IMG/VR virus record: IMGVR_UViG_3300035670_000243 | Span: 1 to 58,340 of that record | Length of the DNA: 58,340 nt | Reading direction: 5' to 3' (one strand) | Source of the DNA: a virus | Part shown: piece by piece, positions 22,771-48,032 of the stretch | Position numbering within the stretch: position 1 is the first letter of the stretch | Layout: every line of letters starts with the position of its first letter | Made by a program: the position numbers and the translations under genes | The notes under the pieces: model-generated | Told to the model about the DNA's origin: nothing | Databases searched by the model: none | Seen by the model: only the letters and a program-made list of their open reading frames with translations

Positions 22771-23050
22771 TGATCGCTTCAATTAACTCATCGTATTGAG
22801 TAGGCGTGAACTCGAGGAAGTTGTACACCCCGATAGCCTCGATGAAGTAACCGCCGGCAGCGGCAGCATCGTTGATAGCGGCCTGTTCGTTTGGTGACTT
22901 GTCGATCATGTAATCATCCACGCACTTTAGTGAGCAGAACCTGGCTTGCTTGCGCGTTGCCCCCGGCGGCGGGGAGTACATGAACCCCCTCGCTTCCCGA
23001 TGACACATCGGACACAAACCGAAACTCCGTAATCTCCGTGTACTGGCCAT
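22706..23050 (-). CDS. DUF6511-like zinc-binding protein
   Basis: A 114-residue protein. I choose ATG 23050 because it has AAGG upstream and precedes the CPMCHREARGF motif; a longer TTG form to 23101 is less likely. C-x2-C near residue 13 and FCSLKC near residue 36 form the metal site typical of a small phage family I know as DUF6511, found next to helicase or nuclease genes. It overlaps the helicase 3' end by 137 nt in another frame, and its own 3' end overlaps the convergent plus-strand gene by 65 nt. Confidence 0.65.
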   Translation of the reverse strand: MASTRRLRSFGLCPMCHREARGFMYSPPPGATRKQARFCSLKCVDDYMIDKSPNEQAAINDAAAAGGYFIEAIGVYNFLEFTPTQYDELIEAIITAYVDSLQAQKAESEGVRFP

Positions 23051-24593
23051 TCTTCTGAACCTTGATTTCGGTGGGTTTGAGTAATGCGTCTGCATTACCA
23101 AGGGCGTCTGCGGTCGAGGCCGGCAGGATGCCGGGTCCCTTCATGCGCTTGCGCCACCACTTGACTGCCTTGTCTTTGGGGTAGCCCTTGTGATCGAAGC
23201 AGACCCACTCCCGAAATACTTCCATTCCGGATCTATATTCCACGCGCATGGAGTCCGGCTTCCCCGGCTTATGGTGCCGGCGGTAGAAGACGGCATTGAC
23301 CTTTCTCCACTCAGCCGGGGCGTCCACGCTCATGATGGGCAGCGTCGTCGCCGTAGAGGCGATCTCAGGCTCTCTAGGGGGCCAGACATACCCACAGTCG
23401 GGGCACTCCATGGAGCCCGCAAAAACGATGCTCTTGCATTCTGGGCAGGTCTTGGTCGGAGCCTCCCCGGCCTCGTCACTCTTGCGCGGCTTCTTGGGAT
23501 TGACCTTATCCACCGGCCCGTGCCGGGCAACGTTACCCGCAAAGTCCAGCACCAAGCAGTCCGCCTTGCCTGGCGAGTTACGCATCCCCCGTCCCATGAT
23601 CTGTATATACAAGCCGGTTGAGCAAGTAGGTCTCAGCACCGCAAGGAGGTCCACATTCGGGGCGTTGAACCCGGTCGTCAATACTCCCATAGATGCGATA
23701 GCCCGCAGCCTGCCGGCCTTGAAGTCGCGGATGATCTCATCCCGCTCTACCCTTGGGGTGTCGCCAAAAATGGTCGCACAGTCGATGCTGTGCTTCCCCA
23801 GCAGCGAAGCAATGTGGGTGGCGTGACTCACGCCAGAGCAGAAGATCAGCCACGAGCGGCGGTCCTTTCCGTATTCCAAGATCTCCTCTACGACGGCAGC
23901 GTTGATGTCGTCCTTGTCAACGGCTTTCTCGAGTTCCCCTTGGATGTACTCGCCGCCCCGCATACCAACTCCGCTCACCCCCAGCTGCGTCTTGGGTTGC
24001 TTCGATATCAACTTGGTCAGGAACCCCTCGCGCACCATGTTGGAAAGCGGAGCCTCGTACGAGACCGAATCGAACAGCGCATCCTTGCCTTCGTACAGCA
24101 AGCCAGAGTCCAACCGATATGGTGTAGCAGTTAACCCAATCACCCGCATGTCCGGGTTCATCACCTTCAGGTTGTTCAGAAACTTCTGATACATCGTGTT
24201 TGTCTTGCGCGGGATAAGATGCGCTTCGTCGATCAAAACGATATCGACCTTAACGAACTTCGATGCCTTGGCGTGAACGGACTGTATACCGCAGAACACA
24301 ATCGAAGGTTCGTACTCGCGCTTGTTGAGCCCCGCTGAGTTGATGCCGGCCGGGGCTTCGGGCCAGAGGCTTTTCAGTTCGTCGTAGTTCTGCTTGATCA
24401 ACTCGCGAACGTGCGTTACCACCAGAATCTTCGTATCCGCCCACTGGCTGAGAACCAGCCGGCAGAACTCCGCAATCACCAAGCTCTTCCCAGTGCCTGT
24501 TGACAGGACGATGACGGGGTTGCCGTCATTCTCCTGCATGTAGCGCATGGTGGCTTCGATGGATTCCTCTTGGTAGTAACGCAGTTTAATCAC
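22914..24593 (-). CDS. SF2 DEAH-box helicase with C-terminal zinc ribbon
   Basis: A 559-residue protein. The motifs appear in order: Q-motif-like YYQEES near residue 8, Walker A STGTGKS (31-37), DEAH (122-125), TAT (155-157) and QIMGRGMR (331-338). A zinc ribbon follows (C383, C386, C397, C400). The layout is that of phage DNA helicases of the UvsW/type III restriction helicase group, which unwind or remodel branched DNA during replication and recombination. The last 37 residues share DNA with the next gene in a different frame. It overlaps the upstream small gene by 4 nt. Confidence 0.9.
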   Translation of the reverse strand: MIKLRYYQEESIEATMRYMQENDGNPVIVLSTGTGKSLVIAEFCRLVLSQWADTKILVVTHVRELIKQNYDELKSLWPEAPAGINSAGLNKREYEPSIVFCGIQSVHAKASKFVKVDIVLIDEAHLIPRKTNTMYQKFLNNLKVMNPDMRVIGLTATPYRLDSGLLYEGKDALFDSVSYEAPLSNMVREGFLTKLISKQPKTQLGVSGVGMRGGEYIQGELEKAVDKDDINAAVVEEILEYGKDRRSWLIFCSGVSHATHIASLLGKHSIDCATIFGDTPRVERDEIIRDFKAGRLRAIASMGVLTTGFNAPNVDLLAVLRPTCSTGLYIQIMGRGMRNSPGKADCLVLDFAGNVARHGPVDKVNPKKPRKSDEAGEAPTKTCPECKSIVFAGSMECPDCGYVWPPREPEIASTATTLPIMSVDAPAEWRKVNAVFYRRHHKPGKPDSMRVEYRSGMEVFREWVCFDHKGYPKDKAVKWWRKRMKGPGILPASTADALGNADALLKPTEIKVQKNGQYTEITEFRFVSDVSSGSEGVHVLPAAGGNAQASQVLLTKVRG

Positions 24594-24808
24594 GAGTCAA
24601 GCTCCTGTTTCGGTAGTGATTTCATTATTTCTGTTGCAACGTGCTTCACATGTTCAAGCTCTTTGGTAGAGAACGACATGATCAGGCTATATGCGTACAA
24701 GTCGAGTGCTTTCAAAATAATCAGCAGATCCTCTCCAGTCAGCAGCATCGTTGACTGGACGTCATCATCCGATACTTCATCTGGATCTATGCTGCGGTGT
24801 CTGTCCAT
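24590..24808 (-). CDS. Small acidic hypothetical protein in replication operon
   Basis: A 72-residue protein whose TGA overlaps the helicase ATG. The sequence is acidic at the N terminus (DPDEVSDDD) with two amphipathic helices after it. Its start lies 22 nt inside the nuclease gene upstream. The double overlap means it is translated as part of the nuclease-helicase unit. No family is recognised. Confidence 0.65.
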   Translation of the reverse strand: MDRHRSIDPDEVSDDDVQSTMLLTGEDLLIILKALDLYAYSLIMSFSTKELEHVKHVATEIMKSLPKQELDS

Positions 24809-25737
24809 ACCGATCCATCCTTCATCAGATACTCAACCCAATTAGGACCCGAGTTTATCTGCTCTCCGGGGATCAGATCAGGTACAAACAAGTGGTGTTC
24901 GCAGCCACGCTTCTGCACTTCCAGATCCAAGCTCTTGTTATGCCACTCACATTTCCACCCGCCAGTCGGAAGCGGCGTACTGTGCAGACAGGTTCTGCAC
25001 GATTTCTGTCGCGGCATGTCTTCGCCGTGGCACATCTGACTAAAGGTGCAGTACTTGCACTCGTGCCATGCGGGGTCGTTCGACAGTTTGCCGGGAGGCT
25101 TCGGAGCGAAGATGACGCGCTTTGCCTTCTCGATGAACATCTCGGCTTCGCTCTGTACGTACAATGTACACACACTGGTCAGGTCGCGAACGCCGGGCGA
25201 GGCTGCGGTAAGGTAGTGCTTCTTAGTTCCGAAGTAGTGCATGTAGATCTGGGCCTGCGCGTAGTACACGTAGTCCCAGTTCTTCAGCGCAGTGGACTCA
25301 TCCGTGAAGCGCAACTTCTGCAACTTCTTAAACTTGTTTTCGTTAACAACTTTGCATTCCCAGACGTAGAGTTCGTCCGGGTCTTGCAAAAGCCCGTCGA
25401 TAAGCCCATCGCAGTTGCCGCGAAAGTGCCCGCCGATTGCCTCAAAAGAATGCTGGACACCGGGTTCCTTTTCCGTAGAAAGATTAACGCCAGGCACAAG
25501 GCGAAGCATGTCTGCGACTACCTGTTCGCCCCGATGTCCATCATTGATTCGACGCAGCCCGCCGGCCTCGATAAACCCTCGCCTTACCCAGCGAAAGTTG
25601 AACCAGAGCTTACGCTCGCATGAGTCCCCAACCGCAGATGCACCAAGGTATCCGCGAGGGCTGTTCTCTTGCAGGGACTCCATCGCGGCATCGACTGCAC
25701 GCAATGTGAGATCTTCAGTGTCTGGAATCTTGACCAT
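24787..25737 (-). CDS. PD-(D/E)XK exonuclease, Cas4/RecB-like
   Basis: A 316-residue protein. ATG 25737 is chosen because GGGAGGGG lies just before it; the longer frame would run into the upstream gene. The nuclease core is visible as GNCDGLIDG (D110) and VWECKV (E127-x-K129). C40 near the N terminus and a Cys-rich C-terminal half (CKYCTFSQMC and CRTCLH) suggest an iron-sulphur or zinc site as in Cas4-like enzymes. Such phage nucleases make ssDNA for recombination, fitting the Sak4-like ATPase and ssDNA-binding gene upstream. Translation is probably controlled by the structured leader at 25738-25828. Confidence 0.8.
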   Translation of the reverse strand: MVKIPDTEDLTLRAVDAAMESLQENSPRGYLGASAVGDSCERKLWFNFRWVRRGFIEAGGLRRINDGHRGEQVVADMLRLVPGVNLSTEKEPGVQHSFEAIGGHFRGNCDGLIDGLLQDPDELYVWECKVVNENKFKKLQKLRFTDESTALKNWDYVYYAQAQIYMHYFGTKKHYLTAASPGVRDLTSVCTLYVQSEAEMFIEKAKRVIFAPKPPGKLSNDPAWHECKYCTFSQMCHGEDMPRQKSCRTCLHSTPLPTGGWKCEWHNKSLDLEVQKRGCEHHLFVPDLIPGEQINSGPNWVEYLMKDGSVWTDTAA

Positions 25738-25828
25738 ATCCCCTCCCAAAAAGGGAGGCGCGACACCCGGTCGGTGGGTGGGGAGAGAGCAACTGGGGGT
25801 TGCTAACCGGATGCCGCGCCTCTTTATG
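25738..25828 (-). ncRNA. Candidate cis-regulatory RNA leader before the nuclease gene
   Basis: Read on the minus strand, 25822-25806 pairs with 25771-25755 as a continuous 17-bp stem; two of its pairs are G-U on this strand but would be A-C mismatches on the plus strand, which fixes the direction. Inside it is a 6-bp hairpin (AGCAAC-CCCCA-GUUGCU, 25804-25788) and a C-rich joining strand. The 3' arm ends in CCUC, shared with CCUCCC (25758-25753), which can instead pair with the ribosome site GGGAGG (25747-25742) across UUUUU. The two folds exclude each other. It begins 6 nt after the upstream stop. Not recognised as a known riboswitch. Confidence 0.6.
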
Positions 25829-26314
25829 TTACTTCTTGTGACGTTCCCACGGCTTCGGAGCAGAGCCCGAAGCGGCAGCAACAGGAGCAGCCTGAGGGGC
25901 AGCGGCTGCGGGAGCGGTCCCGCTCAAGGGGTAGTACGCAGCGCGTGCGTCCAGACCACCCATCTTGTTCTCCTTGTGGGTAATAGTGACCTTCATCGGC
26001 TTGAAATGCAACTGCTCGGTGTCCTCAAACACGGACAGACCGACCGCGTTGCAGATGTTGCCCAAGGTCTTCTTCGCGATCTTGACAGTCGCCTCGCTCT
26101 TGTTGAAGAGATTGAGACGCTCCCAGAACCGACTGCCCGCGTACTTCGGGCCCATCACCTCCAGCTCCAGCCAGATGTACTGGCCGTCGCCTGCCTTCGT
26201 GTCGCGAAGGTCCGACTGCACGATCTGCATCGTGTAGTCCCCAGCCGGCAGAATCTCGCGGGTGTTCTGCGTGAGATCGCCCGCGTCTGCTACGTTGAAA
26301 CTTACCTTAGCCAT
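25829..26314 (-). CDS. DUF669 ssDNA-binding-type protein
   Basis: A 161-residue protein. The body (EILPAGDYTMQI, then RFWERLNLFNKSEATVKIAK and LGNICNAVGL) matches DUF669, a phage family found in recombination modules and thought to serve as a single-stranded DNA-binding protein. The C-terminal 35 residues are an Ala/Pro linker ending PKPWERHKK, possibly a protein-binding tip like those of SSB proteins although not acidic. It lies 5 nt after the Sak4-like gene, and the structured leader of the nuclease gene follows it. Confidence 0.8.
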   Translation of the reverse strand: MAKVSFNVADAGDLTQNTREILPAGDYTMQIVQSDLRDTKAGDGQYIWLELEVMGPKYAGSRFWERLNLFNKSEATVKIAKKTLGNICNAVGLSVFEDTEQLHFKPMKVTITHKENKMGGLDARAAYYPLSGTAPAAAAPQAAPVAAASGSAPKPWERHKK

Positions 26315-26319
26315 TTTAA

Positions 26320-27084
26320 TTAACCTCCAGTGACGTTGTTCATTGCCGTGCCCAGTGCATCGGCAAACTTTTGATACTCAAGCGGGAGCATGTCGGGCAG
26401 CGGCCAGCGAGACTTCGCCTGCCAACCTGGACGCTCTTGGGTGTACAACACCCGGTTCCCGTTACCCACAGCGCGAGTGATCTTCTGGTTGAAACCCACA
26501 TCACTCTTGACAGTCGAGTACTGCTGATTGGCAAACATCAGAATGTCGCACCACTCAGCAATCAAGCTTGAGCTGCCGTGATGCAGGTCCAACTGATAGC
26601 GGTCATACGGGTCAGCAAGTGGGTCATCGAAACGCTTCACTTGCGTGTGAGCGAGTACGATCACCTGCATACCCTGCTCGTTGCGCAGGTAATCAAACGC
26701 ATCAAGAATCTGCCGCCAGTAATCCGACGCAGCCTTGTAGCCGCGACCGTAGCCGATGGCGTCGATGGTCTTGACGTTGTTATCTTCCGCAACCTTCTTG
26801 TGGATCAACTGCTCGGCCCAGTCCGCAGAGTCAAGCACCACGGTGCCAAACTCATGCGACTCCGATGCCAGGGCTGCGATGCTCTCCATGATGTCTTCAA
26901 ACTTCTGACATCGCGGGAACGCATCCACGTTGATTGCATCCAAGCCCTCTTCGGTCTGGATGAACACCGGCTTCGGGGCTTGCGCCGCGAACGTGGACTT
27001 GCCGATGCCGTGCGTGCCGTACACCACGATGCGTGGCGGACGGGCAACGCCTGTCTTTCTCAAACTACTCAGTGATATCGCCAT
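26320..27084 (-). CDS. Sak4-like RecA-fold ATPase (single-strand annealing/recombination)
   Basis: A 254-residue protein. Start ATG 27084 has AAGGAG 9 nt upstream; the longer TTG form would place that site inside the gene. Walker A is GTHGIGKST (23-31), and VVLDSADWAEQL near residue 85 is the Walker B region; QVIVLAHTQVKRF is the sensor strand. This is the AAA_24/Sak4 group of small RecA-like phage proteins, which pair homologous DNA together with an SSB-type partner. The DUF669 gene directly after it supports this. Confidence 0.8.
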   Translation of the reverse strand: MAISLSSLRKTGVARPPRIVVYGTHGIGKSTFAAQAPKPVFIQTEEGLDAINVDAFPRCQKFEDIMESIAALASESHEFGTVVLDSADWAEQLIHKKVAEDNNVKTIDAIGYGRGYKAASDYWRQILDAFDYLRNEQGMQVIVLAHTQVKRFDDPLADPYDRYQLDLHHGSSSLIAEWCDILMFANQQYSTVKSDVGFNQKITRAVGNGNRVLYTQERPGWQAKSRWPLPDMLPLEYQKFADALGTAMNNVTGG

Positions 27085-27088
27085 CTCA

Positions 27089-27472
27089 TTAAACTCCTTG
27101 GACAATGGTTACTGCGGTCTTGGCGGGTTTGACGGTGAGTGCAGCAGAAAGGATCTTGTAGAACTGCGGCTCGTTATTGGAAAGGTACTTGACCCCGGCA
27201 TCGTCAAGCTCGCGCTTCATCTTCACAGGATGCAGACTGTCGGGGATCTTCGCTGCAATCTTTGCATCGAAGATGTCCCAATCAATCTTGCGGTTGAGCT
27301 TGCCGGTGATGGTGATCTTGAACGCTCCGACCTGATGGGTCTGAGAGCCTTCCTCTCTCGAGCCGAGAAGAGCGATCAACTCTTCCTCGAGGGCTACTCG
27401 CTTTTCGGTAGCCTTCTTCTCTTCGATCTTCGCTGCAAACAACTCTTCTGCAATTTCAATTTCAGTTTTCAT
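27089..27472 (-). CDS. Hypothetical replication-operon protein with coiled coil
   Basis: A 127-residue protein starting at ATG 27472 (MKTEIEIAEEL), with AAGGAA ahead of it; the frame extends further upstream but through the promoter region. Residues about 5-40 form a charged helix, followed by a beta-rich region (FKITITGKLNRKIDW) and a C-terminal YLSNNEPQFYKILSAALTVKPAK motif. This type of protein is often the first gene before a Sak4/DUF669 pair. Its function is unknown. Confidence 0.65.
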   Translation of the reverse strand: MKTEIEIAEELFAAKIEEKKATEKRVALEEELIALLGSREEGSQTHQVGAFKITITGKLNRKIDWDIFDAKIAAKIPDSLHPVKMKRELDDAGVKYLSNNEPQFYKILSAALTVKPAKTAVTIVQGV

Positions 27473-44305: not shown

Positions 44306-44455
44306 ATGAAAAAGCCCGGACTGTACGAGAACATTCACGCGAAGCGCGAGCGCATTAAAGCTGGGTCCCCGGAGCGCATGAGAAAGCCGGGGTCCCTTGG
44401 AGCGCCGACTGCGAAGGCATTCCGTGACTCAGCTAAAACTGCCAAGCGCAAGTAG
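44306..44455 (+). CDS. Small basic phage protein next to terL
   Basis: A 49-residue, Lys/Arg-rich protein from ATG 44306: MKKPGLYENIHAKRERIKAG, then MRKPGSLGAPTAKAFRDSAKTAKRK. Very similar short proteins are widespread in phage structural regions, often by the terminase or portal. The role is unknown. No good ribosome site is visible. It overlaps the start of terL by 32 nt. Confidence 0.65.
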   Translation: MKKPGLYENIHAKRERIKAGSPERMRKPGSLGAPTAKAFRDSAKTAKRK

Positions 44456-47400
44456 CCAGTCACCGGGGACCCCTCCCCCTCCCCCGGCTGCGATTGACTT
44501 TAACGATCCTTTGATTAGGGAGCTGAACAAGCTTCCGACGGAGGATTTGATAGCGTATGAGAACCGGTTGAGGTGGGTGAATCAGCGTCACAAGCACCAG
44601 AAGCCGCCGAAGGGTGAGTGGACGGTGTGGTTGTTACTGGCGGGACGCGGAGCGGGTAAAGCGCTTTGTGTGGATACGCCTGTTGCGACGGCAACGGGCT
44701 GGACGCGCATGGGTGATCTTCGAGATGGCGATGTGGTGTTTGACGAGCAAGGAGCTGCGTGCACTGTAGTGAAATCGCATGAGCCGTATATTCCTGCTGC
44801 GATGTATCGGTTGACGTTTTCGGATGGCTCAACGATTGATGCGGACGCAGAGCATTTGTGGACGACTTTGACGCATCGTGCGCGAAAGCAGATGACGCGG
44901 CATGGGATTTCCAGGGTTCCGGACGATTGGGCGACATACCGGCATGTGTTGACTGATTGCCACGGCAACGTCACTGGGGAGGTTGGGGCTGAGACGTTGA
45001 CGACTGAGCAGTTGATTGGGTCTTTTACGCACAGTAGCAGGGGTGATTTAAACCACTGCATTCCGACCGCACAGCCGTTAAATCTTCCTGAGAAGGATCT
45101 GCTGATTGACCCATATTTGTTGGGTGTGTGGCTAGGTGATGGCGCATCTAAGGACCAAGTGATTTGGTCACACATTGACGATTTGCCGTTTGCTGAGGCG
45201 CATATTCAGTCGCTGGGTTACGAAACGTCGAGAAAGCACGATCAGGGTAATACGTGGAGTTTGCGCATTCAGGGGCTTGCCGCGCAGCTTAAAGAACTAG
45301 GCGTTTTTAAAAACAAGCATGTTCCAAGCCAATATCTTCGTGCGTCGATTGAGCAGCGTTTAGCGTTGTTGCGCGGGTTAATGGACACCGATGGGTATCA
45401 GTCTTCAAAGGCTGCGGAGTTTTGCAATACCAATCGCGCATTGGCTGAAGCGGTGTATGAGTTAGCGGTGTCATTGGGTGAGAAGCCGACTTTTAAAGAA
45501 AGCCGCGCCATGTTGTACGGTCGTGATTGTGGTGAGAAATATCGCGTGACATGGCGGTGGAATCGGTTTAACCCGTTCTCGTTGCCGCGCAAAGTGAATC
45601 AATTAGCAGCCCCCGAAGCGCAAGCGTTCAAGCACGGGCATCGGATGATTGTGTCGATTGAGCGCATTCAGCCATCCACTGTGCGGTGCATTACGGTGGA
45701 TAGTGCTTCGCGGTTGTATTTGGCCGGGGAGGCCATGATTCCAACGCACAATACACGCGCAGCAGCGGAATGGGTGTGGTGGCAGGCGTACAAAACGCCG
45801 GAGACGCGCTGGTTGGTGTGTGCACCAACGGCAGCGGACATTCGCGATACGTGTTTTGAGGGTGATTCTGGGTTAATTCAGGTGATGCCGGAGCGTGTTG
45901 TATCGGAATACAACCGGTCGCTATCGGAAATTATTCTGAAGAACGGCTCGCTAATCAAAGGCATTTCAGCGGAGACTCCCGACCGGCTGCGCGGTGGTCA
46001 ATGGCATGGTGCTTGGTGTCACCCTGCTGGAACTCCGGTCTTGATGGCAGACGGTAGCGAGAAGCCCATCGAGAAGATCCAAGTAGGTGATGTAGTTCAA
46101 ACGCGATTTGGGCCGCACGCAGTCACGGCATCGGGCTTGAGCCAGAACCCCGCACCGCTGTACCGTATCAGTTATGGCACGACGAACTTGACATGTACCG
46201 CAGATCATCCGATACTGATTGCAGGCCGGGGATGGGTCCCGGCTGAAAGCGTCAGAGTAGGAGATGAGCTATGGATACCATTGAGTTTGGCGGGAAAATA
46301 TGGCGTAAGCGCAAAGACGGGTACTACCGAAACGGTAAGAAGCAGTACCTTCATCGACACGTTTACGAGCAAAGCCACGGAGCTATTCCGCCCGGCTACG
46401 TTGTGCATCACGCCGATCACGACCCGGCTAACAACGACATTACGAACTTGGTGCTTATGCGTCGTTCTGAGCATCACAGCTATCATTCAGCAGGCAGACC
46501 AACGTCTGATAAGCAGAAGCAAGCTGCTTCAGCAACTTTTGTGCGCATGTGGCAAGAGTTGGAGTTGGATTCAAAAGCTTGCGTGCAGTGCGGTACGCAG
46601 TTTGAAAGCAAATCCATGCACAAAACTCGTGAGTTCTGTTCTGCAAAGTGCATGGAGAAGTGGAGAGCAAATGCTTTCCAGCCTGAAGAGCGCAAGTGCG
46701 AAGAGTGTAAAAGCCCTTACGAAGCCGTTAAGCGAACTCAGAAGTATTGCTGCGAGTCTTGCAATCAGAAAGCCGCTACTCGCCGGTATCGGGCGGATCG
46801 ACCCATTACAGTTCAGTCCTGTAATACCTGCGGAAAACAGTACGAAACCAAGCGCGCAAACGCAAGGTTCTGCTCAAGGCCCTGCGCCGTTCGCTATCAC
46901 GGCAAAAATCAGCGCCGTCGAAAGGTTAAAGACGCGGGAGCCGGTTTATAACCTGACAGTTGATCAGGTAAACGAGTACGTTGCAGGCGGAGTCGTGGTG
47001 CATAATTGCGATGAGTTAGCAGCTTGGCAGTACGATCAGGAGGCGTGGGACATGATTATGTTCGCGCTTCGATTGGGGAAACGTCCGAGGATTGTAGCGA
47101 CGACGACTCCGAAGCCGAAGGCGTTGATTCGTGACTTGATTGCGCGTGATGGGGCGGATGTGCACGTTACGAGGGCGAGCACGTACGAGAACATTGCGAA
47201 TTTGGCTCCGACTTTTCAGCAGCAGTTGTTGAAATTTGAGGGCACGACGCTTGGAAGACAGGAAATCCACGCGGAGGTGTTAAATCCTGAGGAGCAGGGG
47301 ATTATCAAGCGCAATTGGGTGAAGCTCTGGCCGGCGAAGAAGCCGTTACCGGCGCTTGAGCACATTGTGATGAGCTTGGACACGGCATTTACGGAGCAGA

Positions 47401-48032
47401 CGAGGGACAAAAAGACGTCCGATTCGGACCCGAGTGCGTGTGTGGTGTTGGGATTGTTCTACGAGAACGAGAAACCGAACATTATTTTGCTGGATTGTTG
47501 GGAAGACCGGCTGGGGATGCCGGAGTTGATCAAGAAGGTGAAGCGGGAGATGGAGGTTTACTACGGGGAGGACGATCAGAAGCCGATTATCAAGCCGATG
47601 TACGGTCCTTCGCGGATGATTAACACGGGTCGGAAGCCCGATACGATAGTGATTGAGGACAAGGGCAGCGGGATTTCTCTCCGTCAGATGCTCTCTAGGG
47701 AGGGGATTCTGGCGCATGCGTATAACCCTGGGAAGGCATCTAAGTTGACCCGATTGCACATGGTGAGTCACTTATTTGCCAGTGGGATGGTGTGGTTTGT
47801 GGAGAGTGAGAAGCGTTCCGGGCAGGTTAGATCATGGGCGGAGCCGCTTTTGTACCAATTGTGTTCGTTTTCGGGGGAGGGGACGATCAAACACGATGAT
47901 TTGATGGATGCTTGCACGCAGGGATTACGTTTCCTAGCGGACAGGGATATGATAAGCGTGAGTAAACCTAAGCCGGTACAGCCGCGACTAATTGTGAACG
48001 AGCGTCCGAGGGGAAATCCATATGGCATCTGA
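44424..48032 (+). CDS. terL: Large terminase subunit carrying two inteins
   Basis: A 1202-residue precursor from GTG 44424 (GAAGG 6 nt upstream; the TTG at 44397 is less likely), giving about 508 residues after both inteins leave. The extein shows Walker A GRGAGKT, split between K and T by intein 1, and Walker B GAWCDELAAW, split between W and C by intein 2, then ATTTPKPKALIRDL and a nuclease domain with SLDTAF, VIEDKGSG and KHDDLMDAC. TerL is the ATP-driven motor and nuclease that packs DNA through the portal. Neither ATP motif exists until splicing occurs, so packaging depends on both inteins. The stop overlaps the portal start by 11 nt. Confidence 0.95.
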   Translation: MTQLKLPSASSQSPGTPPPPPAAIDFNDPLIRELNKLPTEDLIAYENRLRWVNQRHKHQKPPKGEWTVWLLLAGRGAGKALCVDTPVATATGWTRMGDLRDGDVVFDEQGAACTVVKSHEPYIPAAMYRLTFSDGSTIDADAEHLWTTLTHRARKQMTRHGISRVPDDWATYRHVLTDCHGNVTGEVGAETLTTEQLIGSFTHSSRGDLNHCIPTAQPLNLPEKDLLIDPYLLGVWLGDGASKDQVIWSHIDDLPFAEAHIQSLGYETSRKHDQGNTWSLRIQGLAAQLKELGVFKNKHVPSQYLRASIEQRLALLRGLMDTDGYQSSKAAEFCNTNRALAEAVYELAVSLGEKPTFKESRAMLYGRDCGEKYRVTWRWNRFNPFSLPRKVNQLAAPEAQAFKHGHRMIVSIERIQPSTVRCITVDSASRLYLAGEAMIPTHNTRAAAEWVWWQAYKTPETRWLVCAPTAADIRDTCFEGDSGLIQVMPERVVSEYNRSLSEIILKNGSLIKGISAETPDRLRGGQWHGAWCHPAGTPVLMADGSEKPIEKIQVGDVVQTRFGPHAVTASGLSQNPAPLYRISYGTTNLTCTADHPILIAGRGWVPAESVRVGDELWIPLSLAGKYGVSAKTGTTETVRSSTFIDTFTSKATELFRPATLCITPITTRLTTTLRTWCLCVVLSITAIIQQADQRLISRSKLLQQLLCACGKSWSWIQKLACSAVRSLKANPCTKLVSSVLQSAWRSGEQMLSSLKSASAKSVKALTKPLSELRSIAASLAIRKPLLAGIGRIDPLQFSPVIPAENSTKPSAQTQGSAQGPAPFAITAKISAVERLKTREPVYNLTVDQVNEYVAGGVVVHNCDELAAWQYDQEAWDMIMFALRLGKRPRIVATTTPKPKALIRDLIARDGADVHVTRASTYENIANLAPTFQQQLLKFEGTTLGRQEIHAEVLNPEEQGIIKRNWVKLWPAKKPLPALEHIVMSLDTAFTEQTRDKKTSDSDPSACVVLGLFYENEKPNIILLDCWEDRLGMPELIKKVKREMEVYYGEDDQKPIIKPMYGPSRMINTGRKPDTIVIEDKGSGISLRQMLSREGILAHAYNPGKASKLTRLHMVSHLFASGMVWFVESEKRSGQVRSWAEPLLYQLCSFSGEGTIKHDDLMDACTQGLRFLADRDMISVSKPKPVQPRLIVNERPRGNPYGI
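44661..45752 (+). mobile_element. Intein 1: class 3-like, in TerL Walker A, with LAGLIDADG endonuclease
   Basis: A 364-residue intein from A1 (ALCVDTPVATATGW) to MIPTHN with Thr as the next extein residue; removing it restores GRGAGKT. It lacks Cys at position 1 but has the class 3 triad: W67 in block B (AEHLW), C343 in block F (RCITVD) and T362 in block G (PTHN). Endonuclease motifs are LLGVWLGDGA (153-162) and LLRGLMDTDG (236-245). Taking the Cys at residue 3 as the first residue would leave two extra extein residues inside Walker A. Homing would target the uninterrupted Walker A codons of other terL genes. Confidence 0.9.
46017..47006 (+). mobile_element. Intein 2: class 1-like, in TerL Walker B, hosting an out-of-frame HNH gene
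   Basis: A 330-residue insertion from C1 (CHPAGTPVLMADGSEKPI) to GGVVVHN, followed by Cys as the first extein residue; removal joins GAW to CDELAAW. Block B TADHPIL has T61 and H64; block F is VYNLTVDQVNEYVAGG. The splicing parts are about residues 1-88 and about 295-330. The roughly 227 residues between them, in the terL frame, are Ser/Leu/Ala-rich and match no endonuclease. This DNA encodes an HNH protein in another frame. The splice residues look complete, so splicing is expected, with a long linker of unknown fold in place of the usual endonuclease. Confidence 0.9.
46271..46951 (+). CDS. HNH endonuclease nested out of frame inside intein 2 of terL
   Basis: A 226-residue protein read in a different frame from terL. 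It has its own AGGAG (46259-46263) 7 nt before ATG 46271. The HNH core is LHRHVYEQSHGAIPPGYVVH then HADHDPANNDITNLVLM (about 27-63), followed by three repeated Cys modules: C104/C107 with C123/C127, C143/C146 with C160/C164, and C184/C187 with C201/C205. It begins just after the intein block containing VGDELWIP and its stop falls in the codons of block F (VYN), so it fills exactly the endonuclease slot. It probably drives homing of intein 2. Both frames are intact. Confidence 0.9.
   Translation: MDTIEFGGKIWRKRKDGYYRNGKKQYLHRHVYEQSHGAIPPGYVVHHADHDPANNDITNLVLMRRSEHHSYHSAGRPTSDKQKQAASATFVRMWQELELDSKACVQCGTQFESKSMHKTREFCSAKCMEKWRANAFQPEERKCEECKSPYEAVKRTQKYCCESCNQKAATRRYRADRPITVQSCNTCGKQYETKRANARFCSRPCAVRYHGKNQRRRKVKDAGAGL

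Follow-up and report, generated by a model that had tools for sequence, protein, structure and literature searches.

A covarying RNA hairpin behind the single-strand DNA-binding protein gene of a phage recombination operon: a candidate insulator of a Cas4-domain nuclease

An RNA hairpin element lies between the gene for a single-strand DNA-binding protein (SSB) and the gene for a Cas4-domain exonuclease, on the minus strand of the viral DNA analysed here (IMG/VR record IMGVR_UViG_3300035670_000243, positions 1 to 58,340; this whole stretch of 58,340 nt is called the window). Its long stem, P1, is a conserved, strand-specific minus-strand RNA structure whose pairing is kept by compensating changes among the sequences compared, and across the same sequences the position of the element follows the SSB stop codon and not the nuclease. 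As judged from these comparisons, it may well act as an intercistronic hairpin of a phage recombination operon, insulating the Cas4 nuclease and keeping its expression low compared with that of SSB, a reading in which our confidence is evenly balanced. No publication describing the element appeared among those listed in searches of the open-access PMC library.

Operon setting and architecture of the element

Matches to Pfam and PHROG give an operon order of Sak4, SSB, Cas4 and helicase, all on the minus strand. The AAA/Sak4-like single-strand annealing protein (26320..27105; Pfam AAA_24, E 5.9e-51; PHROG 124 Sak4-like, E 3.7e-43) is followed by the DUF669 family SSB (25829..26314; Pfam DUF669, E 1.3e-15; PHROG single strand DNA binding protein, E 1e-27), by the Cas4-domain exonuclease (24787..25737; PHROG 1990, E 1e-67) and, downstream of the nuclease, by the helicase (22914..24593; PHROG 16, E 2.7e-97). 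Passages of a study of phage HK620 (PMC5928155) identify the DUF669 protein adjoining its sak4 gene as the SSB and describe the final six residues of that protein as essential. At the SSB C terminus in the window (25829-25860, minus strand), a KPWER(H)KK tail is strongly kept in most relatives. Elsewhere, on the plus strand, the 1211-aa open reading frame for the terminase large subunit (44397-48032) has intein-like parts: Hint/intein splicing matches cover residues 541-871, a LAGLIDADG match covers 319-369, and 95-146 match Hint weakly; by sequence, the gene possibly carries two inteins.

The element occupies the gap between the SSB stop codon (25831-25829) and the nuclease start codon (25737-25735). 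The original prediction had placed a 17-bp minus-strand stem, an inner 6-bp hairpin and a C-rich joining strand here, and all three are exactly where it put them. The 5' arm of P1 (25806..25822) begins 6 nt past the SSB stop codon, with its conserved GCGCG core 9 nt past it; read on the minus strand, 25822-25806 (GAGGCGCGGCATCCGGT) pairs with the 3' arm at 25771-25755 (ACCGGGTGTCGCGCCTC) through 17 pairs, two of them G-U. Inside P1 are the hairpin P2 (25788..25804; 25804-25799 paired with 25793-25788), which varies in sequence and length among relatives, and the C-rich, G-poor joining strand (25772..25787), whose last 14 nt ahead of the 3' arm average 49% C and 9% G across 46 relatives. Further 3' come CCTCCC (25758-25753), TTTTT, GGGAGG (25747-25742) and the ATG, so that the ribosome site can be closed by an alternative hairpin, P3 (25742..25758). 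The CCTC foot of the P1 3' arm overlaps the 5' strand of P3, and the two pairings compete, as had been proposed. The earlier description tied the whole to the nuclease gene, but it belongs equally to the gap after SSB.

The minus-strand fold of 25725-25831 reaches -45 kcal/mol (z -3.36; none of 200 shuffles as good), whereas the plus strand of the same region is ordinary (z +0.11). The P1 stem is absent from the output of a general inverted-repeat scan of the window, presumably because that scan ignores G-U pairs.

P1 is a conserved minus-strand RNA tied to the SSB stop codon

Relatives were collected from several directions. A nuclease search of viral contigs gave 80 loci, in 74 of which leaders were read, the other six being truncated or having alignments that did not run from residue 1; a DNA pattern of the stem gave 89 stretches, an SSB query 25 loci and an SSB alignment query 77 loci. 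Leaders with a recognisable upstream SSB end number 48, of which 28 are distinct, the window copy among them, and a separate covariation set aligns 22 distinct leaders. Running a P1-only covariance model on 77 selected sources yielded 46 distinct rows, on the same strand as the genes. Within the window, with both strands scored, this model finds a single site. Among 71 further pattern loci there are 26 strong matches (at least 58 bits), the remaining matches being opposite-strand echoes or weak (at most 31 bits); another 18 pattern loci, judged by eye, comprise 14 behind an SSB-like end and 4 that are not (L392, L394, L401, L403).

Cellular genomes gave at least 118 pattern loci, and the 100 searched with the model held no convincing copy (best score 21.9 bits). 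An 801-base region compared with annotated phages by DNA similarity had no match, and relatives of the nuclease in plasmid records amount to 7 of 72,556.

The pairing of P1 is maintained throughout the viral set. Over 28 distinct leaders and 15 core pairs, the 420 cells comprise 348 Watson-Crick, 70 G-U, no A-C and 2 other combinations; the 46 distinct rows, in an alignment fitted to the covariance model with nearly gap-free arms, give 553 Watson-Crick, 119 G-U, 3 A-C and 12 other combinations with 3 gaps (690 cells). In the 22-leader set, 99.4% of 330 cells are paired and 7 of 15 pairs show two-sided changes; all five measures of covariation beat 500 shuffles (none as good) and every slid control. 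The core changes in step, with GCGCGGC/GUCGCGC giving way to GCACGGC/GUCGUGC and GCAUGGC/GUCAUGC. On an SSB tree that covers 43 of the 46 elements (three had too little SSB sequence), parsimony counts 20 two-sided and 41 one-sided changes that retain pairing; those that break it number 13 two-sided and 6 one-sided, and some of these are gap states of L331. Such compensating changes in relatives make the stem more than a chance arrangement.

The same counts bear on whether the unit of conservation is RNA or DNA. A G-U pair on the minus strand is an A-C mismatch on the plus strand, and the asymmetry between the two therefore fixes the strand and disfavours a DNA site. An inverted repeat acting at the DNA level, as a binding site, origin or recombination site, could account for conserved ten-base arms in opposite orientation, but a DNA site would not favour 119 G-U over 3 A-C, and the distance between the arms ranges from 11 to 50 nt in relatives; this reading, already largely refuted by the G-U/A-C count, seems extremely improbable.

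Conservation extends beyond pairing in places. The two strands of the P1 foot change together (59 and 9 of 10000 swaps as good, in a test that ignores relatedness), and a GGC/GUC step inside P1 is near-constant. A G-U pair also stands at a fixed place in the P1 core in 39 of 46 rows, A-U and G-C occurring there in relatives. The sequence conservation of P1 exceeds what an insulating hairpin needs, and something may therefore recognise P1. A protein operator, at which SSB or a host protein would bind P1 or the C-rich strand and repress the nuclease or SSB itself, would draw on this surplus conservation, as well as on the retention of a C-rich, G-poor strand in most members, even those that lack a ribosome site; the joining strand nevertheless varies in both sequence and length, and from these sequences we regard an operator as improbable.

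The element accompanies SSB and not the nuclease. In all but one of the 46 rows the P1 core lies 6-9 nt past the SSB stop codon; in L174 the distance is 4 nt. What follows is more variable: a different gene comes next after the element in L001, L002, L020-L023 and L366, and in L013, L173, L174 and L177 the next gene has the same start as the 73-aa open reading frame of L013. In L001, where the interposed product has 264 aa, the nuclease is still 98% identical to that of the window.

The interposed gene of L001 (124-918, start MKRFLSLGAGVQSS) lies precisely between element and nuclease, as do its counterparts in L002, L020-L023 and L366; the L001 copy has no Pfam or NCBIfam match, and the gene looks as if it was gained or lost at the junction of element and nuclease. 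The 73-aa gene of L013 (2292-2513) occupies the same junction, has a stop codon that overlaps the nuclease start, and is without a Pfam match. A further candidate arrangement, fusion of SSB and nuclease by frameshifting or read-through, was considered since the window reading frame 24787-25881 stays open through the leader, but leaders run from 79 to 97 nt; distinct leaders differ in length modulo 3, so the open nuclease frame in the window is a matter of chance.

These features also bear on the suggestion, made in the original prediction, that the leader resembles a riboswitch. In riboswitches with a site-masking expression platform, the ribosome site is concealed by one of several alternative stems, and here, too, two pairings can compete over that site in most members. 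The element differs in having no conserved aptamer core, no Rfam match and no constant downstream gene. The inner region of the 22-leader alignment (columns 26-62) holds no invariant column, and the window matches no Rfam 15 family at the gathering score; with relaxed thresholds the highest-ranking hit, at E 2.3, is an unrelated family. Lack of an invariant column, together with tracking of SSB, makes the element a poor fit to an aptamer serving the nuclease gene. The place behind SSB is kept with an unrelated next gene, and one clade keeps P1 although its ribosome site and P3 are lost. On this sequence evidence a ligand-binding riboswitch is very unlikely.

Possible masking of the nuclease ribosome site

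Start-site folding of the P3 kind, defined as a folding energy of no more than -5 kcal/mol for the 22 nt ending at the start codon, occurs in 33 of 46 rows, compared with 3 of 41 other window reading frames that have a mechanically found ribosome site. A predicted hairpin over the ribosome site, as proposed, is present in most relatives, but it is weak in others and absent in 5 of 46 (L332, L336, L342, L356, L358), which have neither ribosome site nor P3. These five form a single clade on the tree, so the loss counts once; the Sak4 and SSB genes at the same loci do have ribosome sites. Nuclease genes without a recognisable ribosome site were likewise seen at L391, L393, L396, L400 and L402, and at loci of this kind the nuclease AUG lies about 11-13 nt past a strong hairpin. 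Swapping of P3 strands is unconvincing (423 of 10000 swaps as good with 21 tails and 1805 of 10000 with 32, relatedness ignored), in a test that has little power because the ribosome itself constrains the ribosome site.

A second pairing, between the C-rich strand and the ribosome site, had also been proposed and did not survive comparison. As a conserved pseudoknot it was rejected on inspection, since the C-run persists in most of the clade that lacks the site and, in L034 and its relatives, does not match the site, which reads GAGAG there.

A single pyrimidine strand is contested by the P1 foot and the ribosome site. In folding calculations on the 41 rows that have a ribosome site, opening that site costs 2.1 kcal/mol on average when P1 is free; if a ribosome is assumed to cover the stop codon plus 12 nt past it, the mean cost is 8.0 kcal/mol, and the rise is at least 2 in 39 of 41. 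With feet exchanged among relatives, the ribosome site is less accessible than with the natural P1 feet (0 of 5000 shuffles as good, 26 of 35 rows, relatedness ignored). The effect of ribosome cover on the P1 foot is a possibility drawn from the folding of related sequences. Where a member has such a site, a ribosome that has reached the end of the SSB gene would cover the P1 foot, which would free the anti-ribosome-site strand and lower nuclease translation further. It is tentatively conceivable, on this modelling, that the element works as a ligand-free switch in which the SSB ribosome halted at the stop codon lets the freed strand mask the nuclease site, with nuclease made mainly when SSB translation is low.

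Known cases of coupling offer a useful comparison. In rpmI-rplT and in MS2 coat-lysis coupling, as treated in passages of a review (PMC12548453), an upstream-gene ribosome likewise alters pairing over a downstream ribosome site; in those cases the second gene becomes accessible once the first is translated, whereas the effect computed here has the opposite sign. The same passages report that predicted structure just past an upstream stop codon correlates negatively with translational coupling.

Comparable junctions and the proposed function

Hairpins behind SSB are not confined to close relatives of the window. Nineteen annotated phages were picked by hand for host spread, seven from the 50 listed of 409 matches and twelve from 40 of 336; for three of the nineteen (L299, L302, L304) position was the sole basis for naming the SSB gene. 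Folding of the first 60 nt behind SSB gives z below -2 in 17 of these 19, against 17 of 94 other genes, and where gaps are at least 30 nt a strong hairpin follows SSB in 16 of 17 cases compared with 8 of 34 for other genes (Mann-Whitney P 2.6e-6). Viral contigs with more distant nucleases likewise have unrelated strong hairpins at this junction. With the element, the hairpins behind SSB in other phages share position only and not sequence.

These hairpins are often terminator-like, and the original prediction had raised termination for the window as well. A partial intrinsic terminator or attenuator after SSB would suit the window copy, which ends in CCTTTTT behind a G+C-rich stem of 17 bp in a leader folding at -45 kcal/mol, and in which a scan gives a short terminator-like site at 25768-25756. 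Among the other phages, the tail is legible in 16, of which 9 have at least four T within 8 nt past the stem; a terminator behind SSB is entered in two records. Against this, the U tract is not conserved within the element, a run of four or more T being present in only 5 of 46 members, the window copy included, and the terminator scan of the window found 4 sites where shuffles gave 4.9, no excess. Terminators of Acinetobacter phage Loki and Stenotrophomonas phage Bhz54 occupy the same junction and the same position behind the SSB stop codon; their sequences look unrelated to that of the element, and they carry a T tract, which most members here lack. As an account of the conserved element, termination is unlikely.

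A site of processing or mRNA stability deserves somewhat more weight, though it remains doubtful. Here P1 and P2 would be cut by RNase III or would block 3' exonucleases, such that the SSB message outlives that of the nuclease, on the pattern of the puf operon of Rhodobacter. Every member has a long GC-rich stem immediately after the SSB stop codon, and its conservation is strand-specific; both are consistent with such a role, and passages on puf (PMC10253847) report that deletion of the stabilising hairpin at the pufBA 3' end alters the ratio of products. Competition for the ribosome site and the fixed spacing from stop codon to core would be left unexplained.

Among known systems, the element would by analogy work most like the intercistronic hairpin of puf in Rhodobacter. 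Both lie between two operon genes, immediately after the one whose product is needed in greater amount (here with the core 6-9 nt past its stop codon, as above), and both would set a ratio. For puf the effect on mRNA stability is shown by experiment, whereas for the present element it would be putative; the puf passages in PMC10253847 contain no description of ribosome-site competition.

Another system invites comparison through its protein. The T4 gene 32 leader lies upstream of the SSB gene and serves autoregulation, regulating SSB itself. It is likewise an RNA structure beside a phage SSB gene; the present element is downstream of SSB instead.

Insulation and throttling of the next gene, which we infer to be the effect of P1, would bring these observations together. 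The hairpin would sit at the exit of a ribosome stopping on the SSB gene and would separate SSB expression from that of the gene that follows, yielding much SSB and little nuclease. Three means would then lead to one result: a ribosome site masked by P3 in most members that have such a site, loss of the site in one clade, and terminator-like hairpins in more distant phages. The common denominator across phages would be less nuclease than SSB.

The element adds to the known repertoire a covarying phage RNA outside the Rfam 15 families, with a precise place in an operon. Recurrence of unrelated hairpins behind SSB in phages with the Sak4-SSB-Cas4 arrangement suggests a general need for SSB in excess of exonuclease. 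If the version in which the element reads SSB translation is true, it would represent a simple switch that needs no ligand and whose sign is the reverse of that in known coupling, and the protector of single strands would precede the nuclease that resects ends.
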